A stretch of DNA of 64,000 nt from Armatimonadota bacterium (GTDB lineage Bacteria; Armatimonadota; Fimbriimonadia; Fimbriimonadales; Fimbriimonadaceae). Position 1 is the stretch's first letter. Every line of letters starts with the position of its first letter. The notes beneath the pieces were generated by a model, which saw only the letters and a list, made by a program, of their open reading frames with translations, ran no database searches and had not been told where the DNA came from. Location of the stretch: contig JAFDWS010000006.1 in NCBI GenBank assembly GCA_018268375.1, forward strand, positions 355,115 through 419,114, given 5' to 3'. Both the position numbers and the translations under genes were made by a program. Shown piece by piece: positions 1,406 through 9,505 of this stretch.

Positions 1406-1891
1406 TCACCGTCCGCCTGCGCGAGGCCGTGCGGGCACGGCTGTACCCGGAGGAACCGCCATCTGTCCAGGCATGGCCATCTGCATGCGCGGCTCGGGGG
1501 AAGGCAACATCGTCATCTTCTCGACAGCGAGATCGGACTTCCGCACTTTGAGCAACTGGTTGCCACGAAGGATGAACAGGTACACGCCACCATCCATCAT
1601 GGTGGCTTGGCCACCTCCTGGCATCGGCGGCATCATGGCCATCGGCGGCGCTGGCGTGAACTGCCCCGGGAATTCTTGGGCAGGGACGGTCATCTCCGAA
1701 CGGCCCGCTCGGGCAATGCCTTCTTGCGCGGGCGCCGTAGCGCCGGCTCTAGCCGTGTCTTGAGCTTGCGTCCTCTCCTGGGCCGGCGCGGCAAGCGGCG
1801 CCTCTTGCGCCCTCGCGATGGCAAGGGGAAGGGCGAAGGCAAGGCTGGCCAAGCCGAAAACTCCGAGGGCCACGTTCTTCGTGCTGTTCAT
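1406..1891 (-). CDS. Hypothetical exported low-complexity protein
   Basis: I do not recognise a named family for this 161-residue protein. It has a Sec signal peptide (about residues 1-28, with a hydrophobic LGVFGLASLAFALPLAIA stretch), then an Ala/Gln/Pro-rich linker and a Met/Pro-rich stretch. A short core near residues 100-130 reads GGVYLFILRGNQLLKVRKSDL and resembles one beta-propeller blade. It ends in another Pro/Met/Ala-rich tail. A GAGG Shine-Dalgarno lies about seven bases before the ATG. It probably acts outside the cytoplasm. Confidence 0.7.
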   Translation of the reverse strand: MNSTKNVALGVFGLASLAFALPLAIARAQEAPLAAPAQERTQAQDTARAGATAPAQEGIARAGRSEMTVPAQEFPGQFTPAPPMAMMPPMPGGGQATMMDGGVYLFILRGNQLLKVRKSDLAVEKMTMLPSPEPRMQMAMPGQMAVPPGTAVPARPRAGGR

Positions 1892-1951
1892 GTCGCTACC
1901 TCAACTGGGTCAGCCACATGATACGCCGACTAGAGCGCTGCGTCACCAAAG

Positions 1952-3808
1952 TCACGGAAGATCCGCCAAGAACACAGTGCCTGAGGCCTTACAAACGAGC
2001 ATCTTACGGTGTAAGTTGTCGACCTTGATGTCATTGATCTCGGCGCAGTCGACATCCAAGAAGCGCTGCTCGGCCCCATCAGAGGTTCTTACGACGTGGA
2101 GGGAACCGAAGCCGTCGCCGATATAGAGTTGCGAATCGTCTGGGCTGTAGGCAATGCCGACAAGAGAACTCGTCAGGTAGGTGTAAAGGCGCTCCGTCGC
2201 GTCTGCGGTCGAAAACCGATAGAGCAAGCCCCCGTACGCAGTTACCGCCACTTCATCCTCGGCGTTAGAGAAGGCGAGCTTGTACGTGTACCCGTACATC
2301 GGGAGCGTCTGGGCAATCAACGATCCGTCGGCAGGATCGAGGAACGCGACCGTTCCTTCTGGGTCGATCGTGATCGCAAGTTTAGTGCGGCTCGGGCTCG
2401 TCCAGACCCGGATCATTGCCTTCGGCACGATCCTGACCCAAACCGTCTCCCGGGTTCTCCAGTCGACGCACCAAATGTAAGTTTGATTCTTGGAGACAGT
2501 CCTCGCGATGACCATCCTCGATCCGTCACCCAATAAGACCATCGACGTCGCGTTCAATCCTTGTTGGCCGCCAACAAATGGTAGCGGAAGGACTGTATCG
2601 TCAAGGTTCGTCAATAGGTTTCGGACAACAATCTGTGACTCCTGGGGAATGGCGAGCAGTGGCAGCGTTGGATGAAAGTCGCAGCGCCCCCAACCATTCT
2701 CCATCAGAACGACATGGGTACGTGACGGATCACCAGCGGACCAATATCTTGTTTGCGAGCTCCCGTCTCGGCATACGAACTTGCCGTCAGGAGACATACT
2801 GGCAGCGATCGCGTCTTCCGAATCAAACGTAATCTCGCCTAGTTGATCCAACGTCTGAGGATCGACTTTCACGACTGAGTTCAGTGTCTCGAATGCGATC
2901 GCATGGGTCAAGGGGTCCACCTTGAGAACGCGAACGAAATCGGAGTGCATCCAGTGGCTCGCCGCAAGAGTCCAATTCGACGTGTCCCATGATCGCAGCC
3001 TGCGCCCATTGGCTTGAATCAGTCGCTCTCCGTTCTCGCTCCAAGCGATCAACGAGAATCCCCCATCACGCCTGTGCATCAAGGGAAAGGTATTGACGAC
3101 CGCCACTTCATTACCGTCAGGAAGCGAAACAATACGCACCTTTCCACCATTTACTGAAACCGCCAATTTTGTTCCGTCCGGGGAGACGGCAACCATCCCT
3201 TGGCGGGAAAATGGGGGGCCATAACTGACCGATCCAACAACCCTGCCGTCCGCAGTCGAATAGAGCTTCGCGCCTGAACCTCCGCAAACGGCGATCCATT
3301 CACTATGTCGCGGCCAGCACAAATCGGTAAATGAGCCAACAGGCAGATCGAACGCAATCGTCTGATCACTGGTGCGAATCAGGACTAGTCGACTTTCGTC
3401 CAGAGTTGCCGCAACGAACCGGCCGTCGGGGCTGTACAAAACACGCCCGAGAGGCTTGTTGAATGTAATTCGTTTCGTGACACGGCCATCAGGAATCGAA
3501 CAGAAGTCAAAGCAGTACCCGTGCGACAATACGAACACGGGCAGATCAGGGGCAGTATCAAATCCCCGAGCTTCAAACAAGGGCGAAGGGTAAACCGAGT
3601 GCTCATACAGTCCCGTTCGGTTGTCGAACATGGTTATTTCCCGGTCCGATGCAGTCACAATCCAGCGACTCCCGTCGGCGGACGGCGCACTGCCAGAAGG
3701 ATTTGTGCGGGAAGGAACAATCCATTCGATCGTCGGTGCCCCCTGGCCATGGCAGACGGTGGCAGCGAGGAACAGTAGGGGCCAGATTGAACGTATGTTT
3801 GCTCTCAC
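1952..3808 (-). CDS. Exported WD40/YVTN-type beta-propeller protein
   Basis: This 618-residue protein starts with a signal peptide (MRANIRSIWPLLFLAATVCHG). Repeated blades follow, with phrases such as SPDGRFVAATLDESRLV, SPDGTKLAVSVNGGKVRIV, SPDGKFVCRDGS and SPDDSQLYIGDGFGSLHVV, typical of WD40-like or YVTN propellers. These usually act as binding scaffolds, and no catalytic motif is visible. The GTG start has TACACT seven bases upstream. Base composition looks somewhat less GC-rich than its neighbours by eye. The ligand is unknown. Confidence 0.75.
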   Translation of the reverse strand: MRANIRSIWPLLFLAATVCHGQGAPTIEWIVPSRTNPSGSAPSADGSRWIVTASDREITMFDNRTGLYEHSVYPSPLFEARGFDTAPDLPVFVLSHGYCFDFCSIPDGRVTKRITFNKPLGRVLYSPDGRFVAATLDESRLVLIRTSDQTIAFDLPVGSFTDLCWPRHSEWIAVCGGSGAKLYSTADGRVVGSVSYGPPFSRQGMVAVSPDGTKLAVSVNGGKVRIVSLPDGNEVAVVNTFPLMHRRDGGFSLIAWSENGERLIQANGRRLRSWDTSNWTLAASHWMHSDFVRVLKVDPLTHAIAFETLNSVVKVDPQTLDQLGEITFDSEDAIAASMSPDGKFVCRDGSSQTRYWSAGDPSRTHVVLMENGWGRCDFHPTLPLLAIPQESQIVVRNLLTNLDDTVLPLPFVGGQQGLNATSMVLLGDGSRMVIARTVSKNQTYIWCVDWRTRETVWVRIVPKAMIRVWTSPSRTKLAITIDPEGTVAFLDPADGSLIAQTLPMYGYTYKLAFSNAEDEVAVTAYGGLLYRFSTADATERLYTYLTSSLVGIAYSPDDSQLYIGDGFGSLHVVRTSDGAEQRFLDVDCAEINDIKVDNLHRKMLVCKASGTVFLADLP

Positions 3809-3829: not shown

Positions 3830-4738
3830 TTACTGCGCCACTTCGATCCCGAAATGCTCGCAATACCGGTCAAACAGGTTCCGCGCAGCCAGGTAGCACG
3901 AATTCGGCGACATAAAGTGGGGGAACTCGAACGTGATGAGCTTCTCCGCCACCTTCGACGCCGCCTCCATTTTCAGGCGCAGATAACGCCAGTCTGCGGG
4001 CGGGAACTTGATCGGCATGTCGCGATCGAAAGACTCGACGTTCGACCAGCAAGCCACCCCGTGCTGGTCGCAAAGCTCTTTGATGCCGCGATGGAACTCA
4101 GGCAACTCGGAGTACTGGATCTGACCGTCCTGGAAGGCGCAAATATCGAAAGCGCCCTTCGTGTCAGCGAAAACTCGCGACCAGTGTTCAAATGTCTCTG
4201 CCAAAGTGAAGGTGTCGCCCGGGCCAAATTGCTTCGAGCCCATTGGGTAGGGGGAGATCAGCACCGGGACGTCCAAGCGTGACTTGCAGTGCCGGCCCAG
4301 TTCATTGAAGAGCTCGATGATGTGGAGGTCGTTCCGTGAGGCCTCGTGGCACATGTACCACCCCTTGAACGCCGGGCTTTTGCCATACCGTTCGACCACC
4401 TCGTCCACGAACGCTTTGTTGATCTCGACCTCGCGCCACCACGTGCGGCGCAGCCAGTAAGTGCCAGAGTCGTAAAGCCCCCAATAGAGCGACAGACCGT
4501 TTTCTTCAGCCAGCTCGAGGAAGAGAGCTCCGAGATCATCGTGGACAGGCAGCAGGCCGGGCACCGATCGAGCCGGAAAGACGCATTTGTCACGATAGCC
4601 GGCTCGGATGAGGACGACGGTGTCAATGCCGATCTGGCTGTAAAGCCGGAACTCGCGCGCCCACTCCTCGCGGCCCCAGTTCTGGCTAGGGATGTCGTGA
4701 GTGATCTCGTCGAGGAACGTGCCTGTCAGCCGCAGCAT
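3830..4738 (-). CDS. DUF4434-type (TIM-barrel glycosidase-like) protein
   Basis: The chain (302 residues) looks like a (beta/alpha)8 barrel of the DUF4434 kind found among putative glycoside hydrolases. It contains LTGTFLDEITHDIPSQNWG at the N-terminus, IDTVVLIRAGY, KGWYMCHEASRND, PVLISPYPMGSKQFGPGD, DICAFQDGQIQ and CWSNVESFD. There is no signal peptide, so it is probably cytosolic. I chose the ATG at 4738 over an upstream in-frame codon at 4780 because TACACT lies seven bases before it and the longer form would overlap the protease gene. Substrate unknown. Confidence 0.72.
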   Translation of the reverse strand: MLRLTGTFLDEITHDIPSQNWGREEWAREFRLYSQIGIDTVVLIRAGYRDKCVFPARSVPGLLPVHDDLGALFLELAEENGLSLYWGLYDSGTYWLRRTWWREVEINKAFVDEVVERYGKSPAFKGWYMCHEASRNDLHIIELFNELGRHCKSRLDVPVLISPYPMGSKQFGPGDTFTLAETFEHWSRVFADTKGAFDICAFQDGQIQYSELPEFHRGIKELCDQHGVACWSNVESFDRDMPIKFPPADWRYLRLKMEAASKVAEKLITFEFPHFMSPNSCYLAARNLFDRYCEHFGIEVAQ

Positions 4739-4751: not shown

Positions 4752-6254
4752 TCACTGGCCCTTGCCGACAATCTGCTCACGGAAGGCGGGAACTGTCTTC
4801 GCGAACGTCGTGATCCATTCCTTCACGGTACCGATCGAGACGCCGCCCTCAATGTCGAAGTCAGAAACGAGGAACGGGTCGCCGTCGTCGTCGAGGAACG
4901 CCTTGACGAACCGGACCGACTCGTTGAAGGCATTGACCTTGGCCATGTCGCACTTCGTCGGCAAGTCTAGTCCGAGCGACAGTGTCAGGCTCTTGGCGCC
5001 CTCCTTGCCCTCAACGAACTGGTAGAGCGAGACCTCGTTGCCATTGATGGTGAAGCTGAAGCGGTTGCAGCCGCTGCCATCATCGTCAATCTTCGGTTTG
5101 ACACCTATTTCGGCCAGCATCGCGAGAATGGACTTCTCGTCCATGGATGTGACCAGCTTGTCCTCGCCCGTGCCCTTATGAAACGCCGTGAACCCGCCGT
5201 CGCCCTTCTCGCGCCCAAGGACATCGGTCTCGAACTCCTTGACGGATTCGACGAAGTCGGTCACGTAGCGGGAGATGGCAGCAGAAGACGTTCCTGCGGC
5301 GAGGTCGAGATCGTTTTCGATGTAGACCTTGCCTTCCGTGTCTTTGTACGAGCGGGCAAAGCGATGGGTCCGGTTAAAGATGTTGAGCTTGGTGAGTGCG
5401 ATCTGCGAAGTCGAGTCATAACTCGCGCTCATGGCCAGGTTGGTGGTCGGACCTGGATCGTTGGTCACCGCGTATTGAAATAGCGCGATCTTCGAGCCCT
5501 CAGAGTCGAAGATAAGGGCCATCTTGCCAGTTCCGTCGTCCATTCCCTTCGATTCGAGGTCGTTTTCAGACAGGATGGCGACAAGGTCATCGTCAGCGAC
5601 CGTCGTGAAGACCTTCGGCGGGCCCGGCTCAGCTTTCACGAGGAAAGACACAGCGTTCTTGCTTGCATCGAGGTCGGAGACGAACCGCGAGGGCACCGCG
5701 AAGTTCAAGTTCTGGGCGTCCTTGAACTGCCACGAGACGACGCCGAGGACTTCCCCGTTCGAGTTCAAGAGCGGCCCACCGCTGTTGCCGGGTGAGACCG
5801 GACAGGTGAACTGGTAGAGCTTGCCTTGCCCGAAGTACGGAGTCTGGCTGATGATGCCGTCGCTCATGGAAAAATCGAGCCCCTTCGGCGCTCCGATGAC
5901 GTAGGCCTTGGCTCCGATCTTCGGATCTCCATCTGCCAGAGGCAGGATTGGACGGCTACCGGAGTCAACCTGGAGAAGGGCAACGTCGAGGTCAGCGTTC
6001 TTGTCGATCACGCCGAGCACCTTCACCTCTGACCCGTCCGAGAGCTTGGCGGTTATGGACCGGGCCCCTTTGAGCACGTGCCAAGCGGTGACGGCCACGT
6101 CCTTCTGGATGGCAAGGAACGCGGTGCCGACCGATTCTGCGCCATGGGCGCGGTGAACCGTGATCGTCAGAACGGACTGGGAGGCCCTTTCATAGACCTT
6201 CTCGGCAGAATCTTGAGGGTTTGCACCCAGGCAGGCTAGGAGGAAAGGCACCAT
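4752..6254 (-). CDS. HtrA-like trypsin-fold protease with two YbjN-like domains
   Basis: Residues about 20-195 form an S1C/trypsin-like serine protease domain with the full triad: His59 (VTAWHV), Asp90 (ADLDVALL) and Ser158 (PGNSGGPL). No PDZ domain follows. The C-terminal 300 residues carry two similar alpha/beta modules (about 215-350 and 370-500), each with LYQF/LFQY-type strands, an acidic DDD/DLD loop and a final ISRYVTDFVESV or VKEWITTFAKTV helix. They resemble YbjN/type III chaperone-like domains. The N-terminus MVPFLLACLGAN is a very short hydrophobic signal or lipobox-like (LLAC) without positive charge. A GAGG Shine-Dalgarno precedes the ATG. It is divergent from a two-component system, which suggests an envelope-stress role (inference). 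Confidence 0.8.
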   Translation of the reverse strand: MVPFLLACLGANPQDSAEKVYERASQSVLTITVHRAHGAESVGTAFLAIQKDVAVTAWHVLKGARSITAKLSDGSEVKVLGVIDKNADLDVALLQVDSGSRPILPLADGDPKIGAKAYVIGAPKGLDFSMSDGIISQTPYFGQGKLYQFTCPVSPGNSGGPLLNSNGEVLGVVSWQFKDAQNLNFAVPSRFVSDLDASKNAVSFLVKAEPGPPKVFTTVADDDLVAILSENDLESKGMDDGTGKMALIFDSEGSKIALFQYAVTNDPGPTTNLAMSASYDSTSQIALTKLNIFNRTHRFARSYKDTEGKVYIENDLDLAAGTSSAAISRYVTDFVESVKEFETDVLGREKGDGGFTAFHKGTGEDKLVTSMDEKSILAMLAEIGVKPKIDDDGSGCNRFSFTINGNEVSLYQFVEGKEGAKSLTLSLGLDLPTKCDMAKVNAFNESVRFVKAFLDDDGDPFLVSDFDIEGGVSIGTVKEWITTFAKTVPAFREQIVGKGQ

Positions 6255-6469: not shown

Positions 6470-6475
6470 GTGGCG

Positions 6476-7192
6476 ATGTTTGCTACTCAGGGTGCTGAAG
6501 CCAAAGAGGCTGGTAAGAAAGTCTTGGTGGTGGAGGACGAACCTCGCGTAGCCGAATTCATATCATCCGCTCTGAACGAATTTGGCTATATCGTCACTTG
6601 GTCCGAATCGGGGGCCGATGGGCTCCAACGGCTTCAATCCGGTGATTTCGACCTCGCGATCCTTGACGTCTTGCTGCCGGATTGCGACGGTTTCGAAGTC
6701 CTTGCCGCTGCCCGGCGCAAGGGCATGAAGACGCCGGTCATGATGCTGACCGCGAAAACTGCGGTCGAGGACCGCGTCAAGGGGCTCGACCTGGGCGCGG
6801 ACGACTACATTCCGAAGCCGTTCGAGCTCTCCGAGCTCATGGCGCGGGTTCGCGCTTTGCTCCGAAGACGATCGGCCGAGTACGACTGGCTTACTTTGGC
6901 CGACCTCACCTTGGAGCCGGTGACCCGTCAGGTGACCCGGGGCGAGAAGCGGATCGACCTCACGGCGCGCGAGTTCTCGCTGCTCGAGTACATGCTCCGC
7001 AACAAGGGCAAGCCCCTCAGCCGTGCCCAGATCATGGAGAACGTCTGGAACGACCCGAACGGTGACTCCACGGTCGTACCGGTCTACATCAACTACCTCC
7101 GCACGAAGATCGAGCTTCCTGGTTGCGTAAGACTGATCCACACGGTGCGCGGTGTGGGGTATGTCTTGGAAGTCCGTGACTTCACGTCGTAG
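6476..7192 (+). CDS. OmpR/PhoB-family response regulator
   Basis: The N-terminal receiver domain has the acidic pair (VVEDEP), the phospho-acceptor Asp in LAILDVLLPD, the conserved Thr in MMLTAK and the Lys in YIPKPF. A C-terminal winged-helix DNA-binding domain follows ([36 protein letters not shown]). I prefer ATG 6476 over GTG 6470 because of the -10 placement. The kinase gene overlaps its 3' end, so the two are translationally coupled. The divergent HtrA-like protease gene is a plausible target. The phospho-acceptor is residue 64 with this start. Confidence 0.95.
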   Translation: MFATQGAEAKEAGKKVLVVEDEPRVAEFISSALNEFGYIVTWSESGADGLQRLQSGDFDLAILDVLLPDCDGFEVLAAARRKGMKTPVMMLTAKTAVEDRVKGLDLGADDYIPKPFELSELMARVRALLRRRSAEYDWLTLADLTLEPVTRQVTRGEKRIDLTAREFSLLEYMLRNKGKPLSRAQIMENVWNDPNGDSTVVPVYINYLRTKIELPGCVRLIHTVRGVGYVLEVRDFTS

Positions 7193-8480
7193 CAGCCATA
7201 GCCTTCGACTGACGCTGATCGTAACAGTCCTCTTCGGGACCATCCTTGGAGGACTGTTCGGCTTTGCCGTCTCGCTTTATGAGCACCAGGAGAACAAGGC
7301 GGCCGACGATGAACTTGAGACCGTCCTCAACGCCCTCTCCGCTGCAGCATCGCACGAGTCCCGCCTGAACGAAGTTGCCGAACTCATTGAGAGCCCGCGG
7401 AACCCGAGCGCGGCAATCTTTGAGAAAGACGGGCAGTTGGACATCAACGCGGGCACGATCAAGGTGACCAACCTCAAGGGCTCAGGATTCGCCCACATGG
7501 GCGGCAGCCTCGTCCGCTATTCTTCTGTCGACGCGTCCGACAAGCACATCGTCGTCGCGACGAACTGGGCTGGCACTGTCGAATCCTTGTTTCGCCTCAA
7601 GGTGCTTTTGACCATCATTTGGTTTCCACTGACCGCACTGGTGGCGCTTACGACGTGGATCAGCGCGACGCGCACGTTTCGGCCCCTGATGCAAATGGCT
7701 CTTGAGGCCGACCGCCTCTCACAAACCGGGCCTGGCTCGCGCCTGGCAGTGCCGGAGGACGCTGAGTTCGGGCCGCTCGCCGAGAGGCTCAATGTCTTCC
7801 TCGACCGCCTTGAGGAAGGAGTCCGACGTCAGGCTCGGTTCGTGACCGACGCGGCTCACGAATTGCGCACTCCCCTCACGATTGTCCGGGGTCAAAGCGA
7901 GACGGCCCTCCTCCGCGAGCGCACGCCCGAAGAGTACGAAGGCGTCTTGCGGATGGTGGTCGAGGAGGTCGACCGCCTCTCACAAGTCGTGAACAGCCTC
8001 CTCGTCAGCTCCAGCACGCCAGAGGGGCCAGTGGGGATCCACGAGTTGGCCGTCGTCGTTCAGGACACCGTTGACCGTTGGCAACCCAGGTTCTCACGCA
8101 AGGGGGTCAAGCTTCGCTCACGGATCGGCTCCGTAGAGGCCCGGATGGCCCCTCGCGAAGCTGAAACGGTTCTCGACAACTTGCTCGCCAACGCACTCCG
8201 CCACAGTCCCGGAAACTCCGAGTGCATGGTGACACTTTCCAAGCGGGAAGGTTTCGCCGAAATTCGTGTCGAAGACCAGGGGCCTGGAATCCCCGACGAT
8301 GAGAAGGCCAACGTGTTCGAGCGGTTTTATCGCTTGGATGAGTCCAGGAACCGTTCGGAGGGAGGGTTCGGGATCGGCTTGTCGATCTGCCAACGGCTTG
8401 TCCAGCAGCGCGAGGGCAAGATCACCATCGAAGACAACGATCCGCACGGAACGGCCTTCGTGGTCCGTGTTCCCTATTGA
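7161..8480 (+). CDS. Sensor histidine kinase
   Basis: This inner-membrane kinase pairs with the upstream regulator. Transmembrane segments fall at about residues 15-39 and 146-168, flanking a roughly 105-residue extracytoplasmic sensor. A HAMP region follows, then the dimerisation domain with phospho-acceptor His233 ([10 protein letters not shown]). The ATPase domain has an N box (LLANALRHS), G1 (VEDQGPGIP), F box ([11 protein letters not shown]) and G2 (GGFGIGLSI). An in-frame GTG at 7152 is possible, but ATG 7161 gives a better N-terminus. Either start overlaps the regulator gene. The last seven bases overlap ruvB convergently. Confidence 0.94.
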
Positions 8481-9505
8481 TCGAAAAGCCCGCCGTCTGC
8501 TTGGCCACGCGGAGCAGTGAGTCCGAGATGGCGGTACGCCAGCGCCGTAAGGACGCGTCCACGAGGGGTGCGTTGGATCATGCCTTGCTGGAGGAGGTAC
8601 GGCTCGTAGACGTCTTCGATCGTGCCTGCGTCCTCTCCTATGCTGGCGGCAAGAGTCTCCACTCCCACGGGGCCCCCCGAGAACTTCTTGGCAATCGTCT
8701 CCAGCAAGAGGCGGTCGACCCGGTCAAACCCGGACTGGTCGATTTCGAGGGCTCCGAGAGCCTTTTGCGCGACGCCTTGGTCGATGGCTTCCATCCCGTC
8801 GACCTGAGCAAAATCGCGCACGCGCCGCAGGATGCGGTTGGCGATGCGGGGCGTTCCCCGGGCGCGCTTGGAAATCTCTTCGGCCCCCGTGTTGACAATT
8901 GGAAAACCGAGCAACCCCGCTGAGCGCGAGACGATCTCGAAGAGCGCCTGGTTGGAGTAGAACGAGAAGCTCAGTACGATCCCGAACCGGTCCCGCAGGG
9001 GCCCCGTCAGGAGACCTTGGCGGGTCGTGGCACCGATCACAGTGAACGGCGGCACGTCAAGCCGGACAGACCTCGCCGCTGGCCCCTTGCCAATCAAGAG
9101 ATCAACCTTACGGTCCTCCATGGCGGGGTAAAGCATTTCTTCCACCGCTCGAGGGAGACGGTGGATCTCATCAATGAAGAGGACGGCGCCCTCGTCCAAG
9201 TTTGTCAAGATGCCGACGAGGTCGCCGGGGATTTGCAGAGCTGGACCACTTGTGACATGGATTGGTGCCTCCATCTCCTGGGCCACGATGTGCGCCAACG
9301 TGGTCTTGCCCAGCCCAGGAGGCCCGTAGAGCAGGAGATGATCGAGCGGTTCGCTGCGTTGCCGGGCAGCCCTGAGAAACACGTCGAGGTTGGAGCAGAT
9401 CGATTCCTGGCCGATGAACTCCTGGAGCCTCCGCGGACGCAAGGAAAGTTCATAGGCCCTCTCTTCGGGCAAGGCTTCGGTGGCCAGAGCCTGCTCGCGG
9501 TTCAT
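8474..9505 (-). CDS. ruvB: Holliday junction branch migration helicase RuvB
   Basis: RuvB is the hexameric AAA+ motor that drives branch migration of Holliday junctions with RuvA. This 343-residue protein has the family hallmarks: [12 protein letters not shown], Walker [10 protein letters not shown], Walker B with FIDEIHR, sensor 1 GATTR, the arginine-finger region GPLRDRFG, and the C-terminal winged helix ([17 protein letters not shown]). Its ATG overlaps the ruvA stop by four bases (TCAT at 9502-9505), so ruvA-ruvB form one coupled unit. No ruvC is present in the window. Confidence 0.97.

Follow-up and report, generated by a model that had tools for sequence, protein, structure and literature searches.

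The question raised by this locus is what a pair of YbjN domains does at the C-terminus of an exported-type, HtrA-like serine protease, in the place that PDZ domains would occupy. In a survey of serine protease architectures in prokaryotes, published in 2008, trypsin-like domains have PDZ as their chief partner, and YbjN goes unmentioned (PMC2605481). What the widespread YbjN family does is not settled; its members have been proposed to stabilize or regulate other proteins by binding to them. Domain fusion is good evidence of two activities working together, and fusion to a protease makes it possible to test the notion that YbjN domains select clients for proteolysis. The reading that we favor, at a probability of about 0.6, is that the product is an exported protease whose YbjN pair would constitute a built-in, chaperone-type receptor for substrates or partners. 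Features of the window (that is, of the whole 64,000-nucleotide stretch of DNA that was analyzed) are collected in Table 1.

Table 1. The protease-YbjN gene, its parts and its neighbors, in window coordinates
Feature	Position	Strand	Remark
Exported-type S1C serine protease with two YbjN domains, whole gene	4752..6254	-	500 aa
Probable signal peptide, short hydrophobic N-terminus, residues 1-15	6210..6254	-	read from sequence
S1C trypsin-like protease domain, residues 16-200, triad His59/Asp90/Ser158	5655..6209	-	
YbjN module 1, residues 217-346	5217..5606	-	
YbjN module 2, residues 367-497	4764..5156	-	
DUF4434 gene, directly downstream of the fusion	3830..4738	-	
OmpR-type response regulator, divergent from the protease gene	6470..7192	+	
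Sensor histidine kinase, partner of the response regulator	7152..8480	+	
RuvB, syntenic landmark	8474..9505	-	

That the open reading frame is a real gene is established by its third-position GC content of 0.78 and by the existence of intact, full-length congeneric copies. An earlier note on this DNA had proposed an HtrA-like protease with a complete trypsin triad, followed by two YbjN-like modules, and the proposal holds for either half of the protein. The catalytic residues lie in the motifs TAWHVLK (His59), ADLDVAL (Asp90) and PGNSGGP (Ser158) and are invariant in an alignment of all four members of the genus; Pfam places Trypsin_2 at residues 43-172 (E 1.2e-23). The trypsin-like fold, the ordered His-Asp-Ser triad and the GNSGG motif are those of peptidase family S1C. 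The C-terminal PDZ domain, at least one of which defines the classical HtrA proteins rather than S1C as such, is lacking: no PDZ match is listed by Pfam at E up to 10 in the 500-residue protein. The best match of the protease domain to a solved sequence is with heat shock protease HtrA (1l1j; E 2.7e-17). Its NCBIfam Do-family score of 90.8 bits (cut-off 416.2) falls below what is required of full-length HtrA/Do proteins, as is to be expected because the PDZ part is missing. In the full-length model (mean pLDDT 75), the first 200 residues align to DegP, DegQ, DegS, HtrA1 and MarP at Z about 24-26 (about 26 for DegP, DegS, DegQ and HtrA1); as modeled, the N-terminal domain is HtrA-type. Also encoded in this genome are L003, a canonical HtrA that carries two PDZ domains, and L002, a further S1 protease whose tail is of another kind.

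The remainder of the protein is YbjN twice over. Pfam YbjN (PF10722) matches the 500-residue protein in two stretches (E 2.4e-25); in a separate genome search, both modules exceed the PF10722 cut-off of 22, at 52.8 and 43.2 bits, and are the sole YbjN matches in the source genome. TY-Chap1 (PF22551) is matched weakly, at 11.9 bits, below its curated threshold of 27. The two modules are 27% identical to one another (BLASTP E 9e-21), which marks them as products of a genuine tandem duplication rather than sequences that are alike by chance. Since protease matches dominated the fold search with the full-length model, residues 211-500 were folded alone, yielding a model (from a three-sequence alignment) with mean pLDDT 82.8 and pTM 0.84 over 290 residues. 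The predicted fold of this half is that of YbjN: it matches 6vu7, 5fr7, 5frk and 4h5b at Z 13.5-14.6 and rmsd 2.3-3.0 over 125-130 residues, with module 2 lying on E. coli YbjN (6vu7) at Z 14.6 (rmsd 2.3, 125 residues), and module 1 on AmyR (5frk) and DR1245 (4h5b) at Z 13.7 and 13.5, respectively (VIA-align). Next after the YbjN structures come secretion chaperones, with Z between about 8 and 11.6; unrelated folds do not exceed 7. The earlier note's description of two tandem alpha/beta modules of YbjN or chaperone type, with no PDZ domain after the protease, is thus borne out by Pfam and by the predicted fold; a PDZ reading of the C-terminus is ruled out by the absent Pfam match and the YbjN-type model. 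The pTM value signifies confident relative placement of the two modules, and a tandem pair so placed suggests the expected look of a covalent YbjN dimer. An intramolecular dimer would be the likeliest arrangement, as judged from one model and its three-sequence alignment.

Residues 1-15 are short and hydrophobic and align with the clear signal peptides of close relatives (e.g., L010-L013), and GAGG, a word resembling a ribosome site, is located six bases upstream of the ATG. No positive charge precedes the hydrophobic stretch, and this, together with its shortness, counts against the receptor reading; export of the fusion nevertheless appears likely from these sequence features.

Gene order points to how the fusion arose. 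In related genera, the gene immediately downstream of RuvB is a single YbjN gene. One relative (G035) has the complete order DUF4127, RuvA, RuvB, YbjN, DUF4434, DeoB, and carries additional YbjN genes between DUF4127 and RuvA; the family order recurs in part as RuvA-RuvB-YbjN (G033) and as YbjN-DUF4434-DeoB (G032 and G060). The window and G002 have protease-YbjN-YbjN between RuvB and DUF4434, with the two-component system on the RuvB side. The order shared with the single-YbjN slot suggests that the fusion formed in place, where a YbjN gene was already resident; in the simplest account, that gene would have been duplicated and joined to a protease. The single YbjN proteins of relatives have signal-peptide-like starts, for example MRKLLNLSALMAALVLTMTATVAQA in G035. 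The RuvB match at L205 3674-4722 (G035) runs in two overlapping frames, perhaps through a frameshift or an assembly error. Between DeoB and DUF4434 the window also contains, at 1952-3808 (- strand), a gene for a 618-residue, exported-looking beta-propeller (WD40-like) protein that is not found at the matching position in G001, G035 or G058.

The neighbors of the fusion bear on what the YbjN pair might bind. DUF4434 adjoins the fusion in all three species where this is visible (G000, G001 and G002), and it also adjoins single YbjN genes in several related genera. This tight, conserved linkage to DUF4434, and likewise that to the two-component system, would fit a YbjN pair whose task is regulation or anchoring through a single dedicated partner (such as the DUF4434 product or a sensor) in a protease that signals, like DegS or MarP, rather than serving quality control; that the YbjN family has no family-wide conserved surface, suggesting specific partners (PMC5398634), would fit it too. 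We nonetheless consider such an arrangement unlikely: DUF4434 is present in relatives with no adjacent YbjN (among them G026 and G058, which lack YbjN beside DUF4434 and DeoB), and the other group of fusions, described below, recurs in different families.

The two-component system is kept in three of the four species (G000, G001, where the regulator is seen before the contig ends, and G002); its absence from the upstream side of the protease in G003 counts against the favored, receptor reading. The gaps between protease and response regulator in G000 and G002 have no word of at least 8 bases in common. In Streptomyces, htrB adjoins cssRS, whose regulator activates htrB (PMC12802291). By analogy, we infer that the protease may be controlled by its adjacent two-component system; that it serves in envelope or secretion stress is reasonable to suppose, and no more than that.

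Within the genus, the fusion is full-length in G001 and G002 and partial in G003, where the contig ends inside module 2; these copies are 47-51% identical to the 500-residue protein. In the YbjN tree, the copies of module 1 cluster with each other, as do those of module 2 (some groupings are weakly supported), so the duplication probably predates these species. The nearest proteases elsewhere are without YbjN and end in PDZ domains (L010 and L088) or other tails (L011-L013 and L087): it is the tail that distinguishes this genus. Identity in the two full-length relatives is 62-70% in the protease domain and 34-45% in the YbjN modules, and the linkers are variable (11-36%). Faster divergence of the modules and variable linkers are what one might see if the fusion were a neutral accident of gene order, with protease and YbjN functionally unlinked. 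This is barely credible for a fusion that is intact in two other species and visible in part in a third, and recurrence of the combination in a second, separate group already weakens it.

That recurrence came from a YbjN scan across 291 Armatimonadota genomes (78 positive), a search for the pairing that the earlier note had suggested. Five further protease-YbjN reading frames were confirmed by Pfam (L069, L070, L072, L073 and L074). A profile built from L069, L070, L073 and L074 (group B) matches over nearly the whole two-module protein at 31 places, spread across 19 genomes from families f43 and f45; with the one-module forms in G249 and G250, group B comes to 33 places in 21 genomes, where an S1 protease distinct from that of the window is fused to one or two YbjN-type domains. 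Of ten group-B C-terminal halves that were sampled, six are recognized by Pfam YbjN (E up to 0.01). At G264:C42:74560-77547, two group-B genes are adjacent in one genome. The protease tree, a quick one with some long rows, separates group B from the window's genus, and a single origin of all protease-YbjN fusions is rejected on it (AU p 0.0003); on the YbjN tree, one origin is neither favored nor excluded (AU p 0.38). L072, on long branches, may be a third case. Profile comparison of shallow alignments does not join the C-terminal halves of the two groups (probability 1.3), so their kinship rests on the match of each to Pfam YbjN; this counts against the receptor reading.

Beyond the phylum, some 50 long YbjN reading frames from Chloroflexota, Planctomycetota and the phylum of G294 include none with a trypsin domain; the set comprises solely matches over the Pfam cut-off, and several of its long frames are mostly out-of-gene translation, so that rarity there is not proof of absence. 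One Chloroflexota locus (L111) has a TY-Chap1/YbjN gene at 775-1740 followed directly, in an overlapping frame, by an HtrA-type PDZ protease at 1628-2629 (+). An 837-residue, secreted-looking protein (L077 2536-5046, in G260) has C-terminal YbjN-type domains that match the two-module part of the group-B profile, and no protease motif is seen in it. In Armatimonadota, YbjN genes with one or two domains and starts resembling signal peptides also occur in clusters, some of them beside RuvAB (L078, L079, L080, L081, L084 and L205); they apparently represent an exported class of YbjN proteins.

How might the receptor work? Two tandem YbjN domains would take the place of PDZ domains in an exported HtrA-type (S1C) protease and, on the evidence of the model, would most likely pack together as a covalent version of the YbjN or class I secretion-chaperone homodimer. 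In the cell envelope, the pair would bind either partly unfolded segments of a client or a partner protein dedicated to it, and would present the bound protein to the adjacent, putatively active protease, or else gate that protease. YbjN proteins are dimeric and work by contact with other proteins rather than by catalysis (PMC5398634; PMC3575483), and TY-chaperones are predicted peptide binders (PMC9503650). Receptors of substrates or partners in place of PDZ, as the earlier note had them, are plausible. The case for them draws on the gene order shared with the single YbjN genes of relatives, on the recurrence with another S1 protease, on the Chloroflexota TY-Chap1/YbjN gene beside an HtrA-PDZ protease and on the divergent two-component system; that fusions arose more than once in the phylum is a hint that YbjN domains hand proteins to the protease. 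The one-module fusions (G249, G250 and G097) argue against the covalent pair, since they would have to dimerize between chains.

The PDZ domains of DegP shape its cages. YbjN folds form dimers, and the modules could, in place of PDZ domains in that cage-forming role, mainly drive assembly or stability of a protease oligomer, with little role in client choice. This is quite improbable: a tandem pair would satisfy its own dimer interface and have less need of assembly between chains. We entertain a wider version of the receptor reading tentatively, as possible though short of probable. It posits an Armatimonadota class of envelope proteases in which tandem YbjN domains are a covalently dimerized receptor of the secretion-chaperone type that feeds the protease, and in which the exported single YbjN proteins are free-standing client adaptors for such proteases. 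If true, it would assign a definite molecular role to the YbjN family. The fusion itself shows an HtrA core with a chaperone-type domain pair, a putative receptor, where PDZ would otherwise stand.

The protease-YbjN fusion is a recurrent one, and full-text searches of a literature library turned up no paper that links YbjN with a serine protease, in keeping with the earlier note, to whose author no described protease of this architecture was known; domain-architecture databases lay outside the scope of that search, so first description is not claimed.

Comparison with known systems shows what the window protein shares with each of them and where it departs. With HtrA, DegP, DegQ and DegS (peptidase S1C) it shares the protease fold and triad, at the Z of about 26 given above for DegP, DegS and DegQ, but it is without PDZ and has two C-terminal YbjN modules instead. 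Both modules resemble the YbjN family (E. coli YbjN, E. amylovora AmyR and D. radiodurans DR1245) by Pfam and by predicted fold; those named members are stand-alone homodimers, whereas the window protein has two copies in one chain, fused to a protease and probably exported. Class I type III secretion chaperones share the fold of the modules (SycT, Z 11.6; SicP, 11.0; CesT, 10.0); unlike TY-Chap1-3 and these chaperones, the window protein shows no link to a secretion system, and no effector role is implied. Group-B fusions (L159-L178) are likewise exported-type S1 proteases followed by one or two YbjN-type domains, but of a different protease lineage and separate origin (L069 is 22% identical). 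Among the S1C proteases that also dispense with PDZ are Rv3671c (MarP), a membrane protein, and the S1C-NTF2 portion of C. thermocellum RsgI9, with Z 26.2 and 25.2, respectively, to the window's protease domain; where RsgI9 carries an NTF2-like domain, the window protein carries its YbjN pair.
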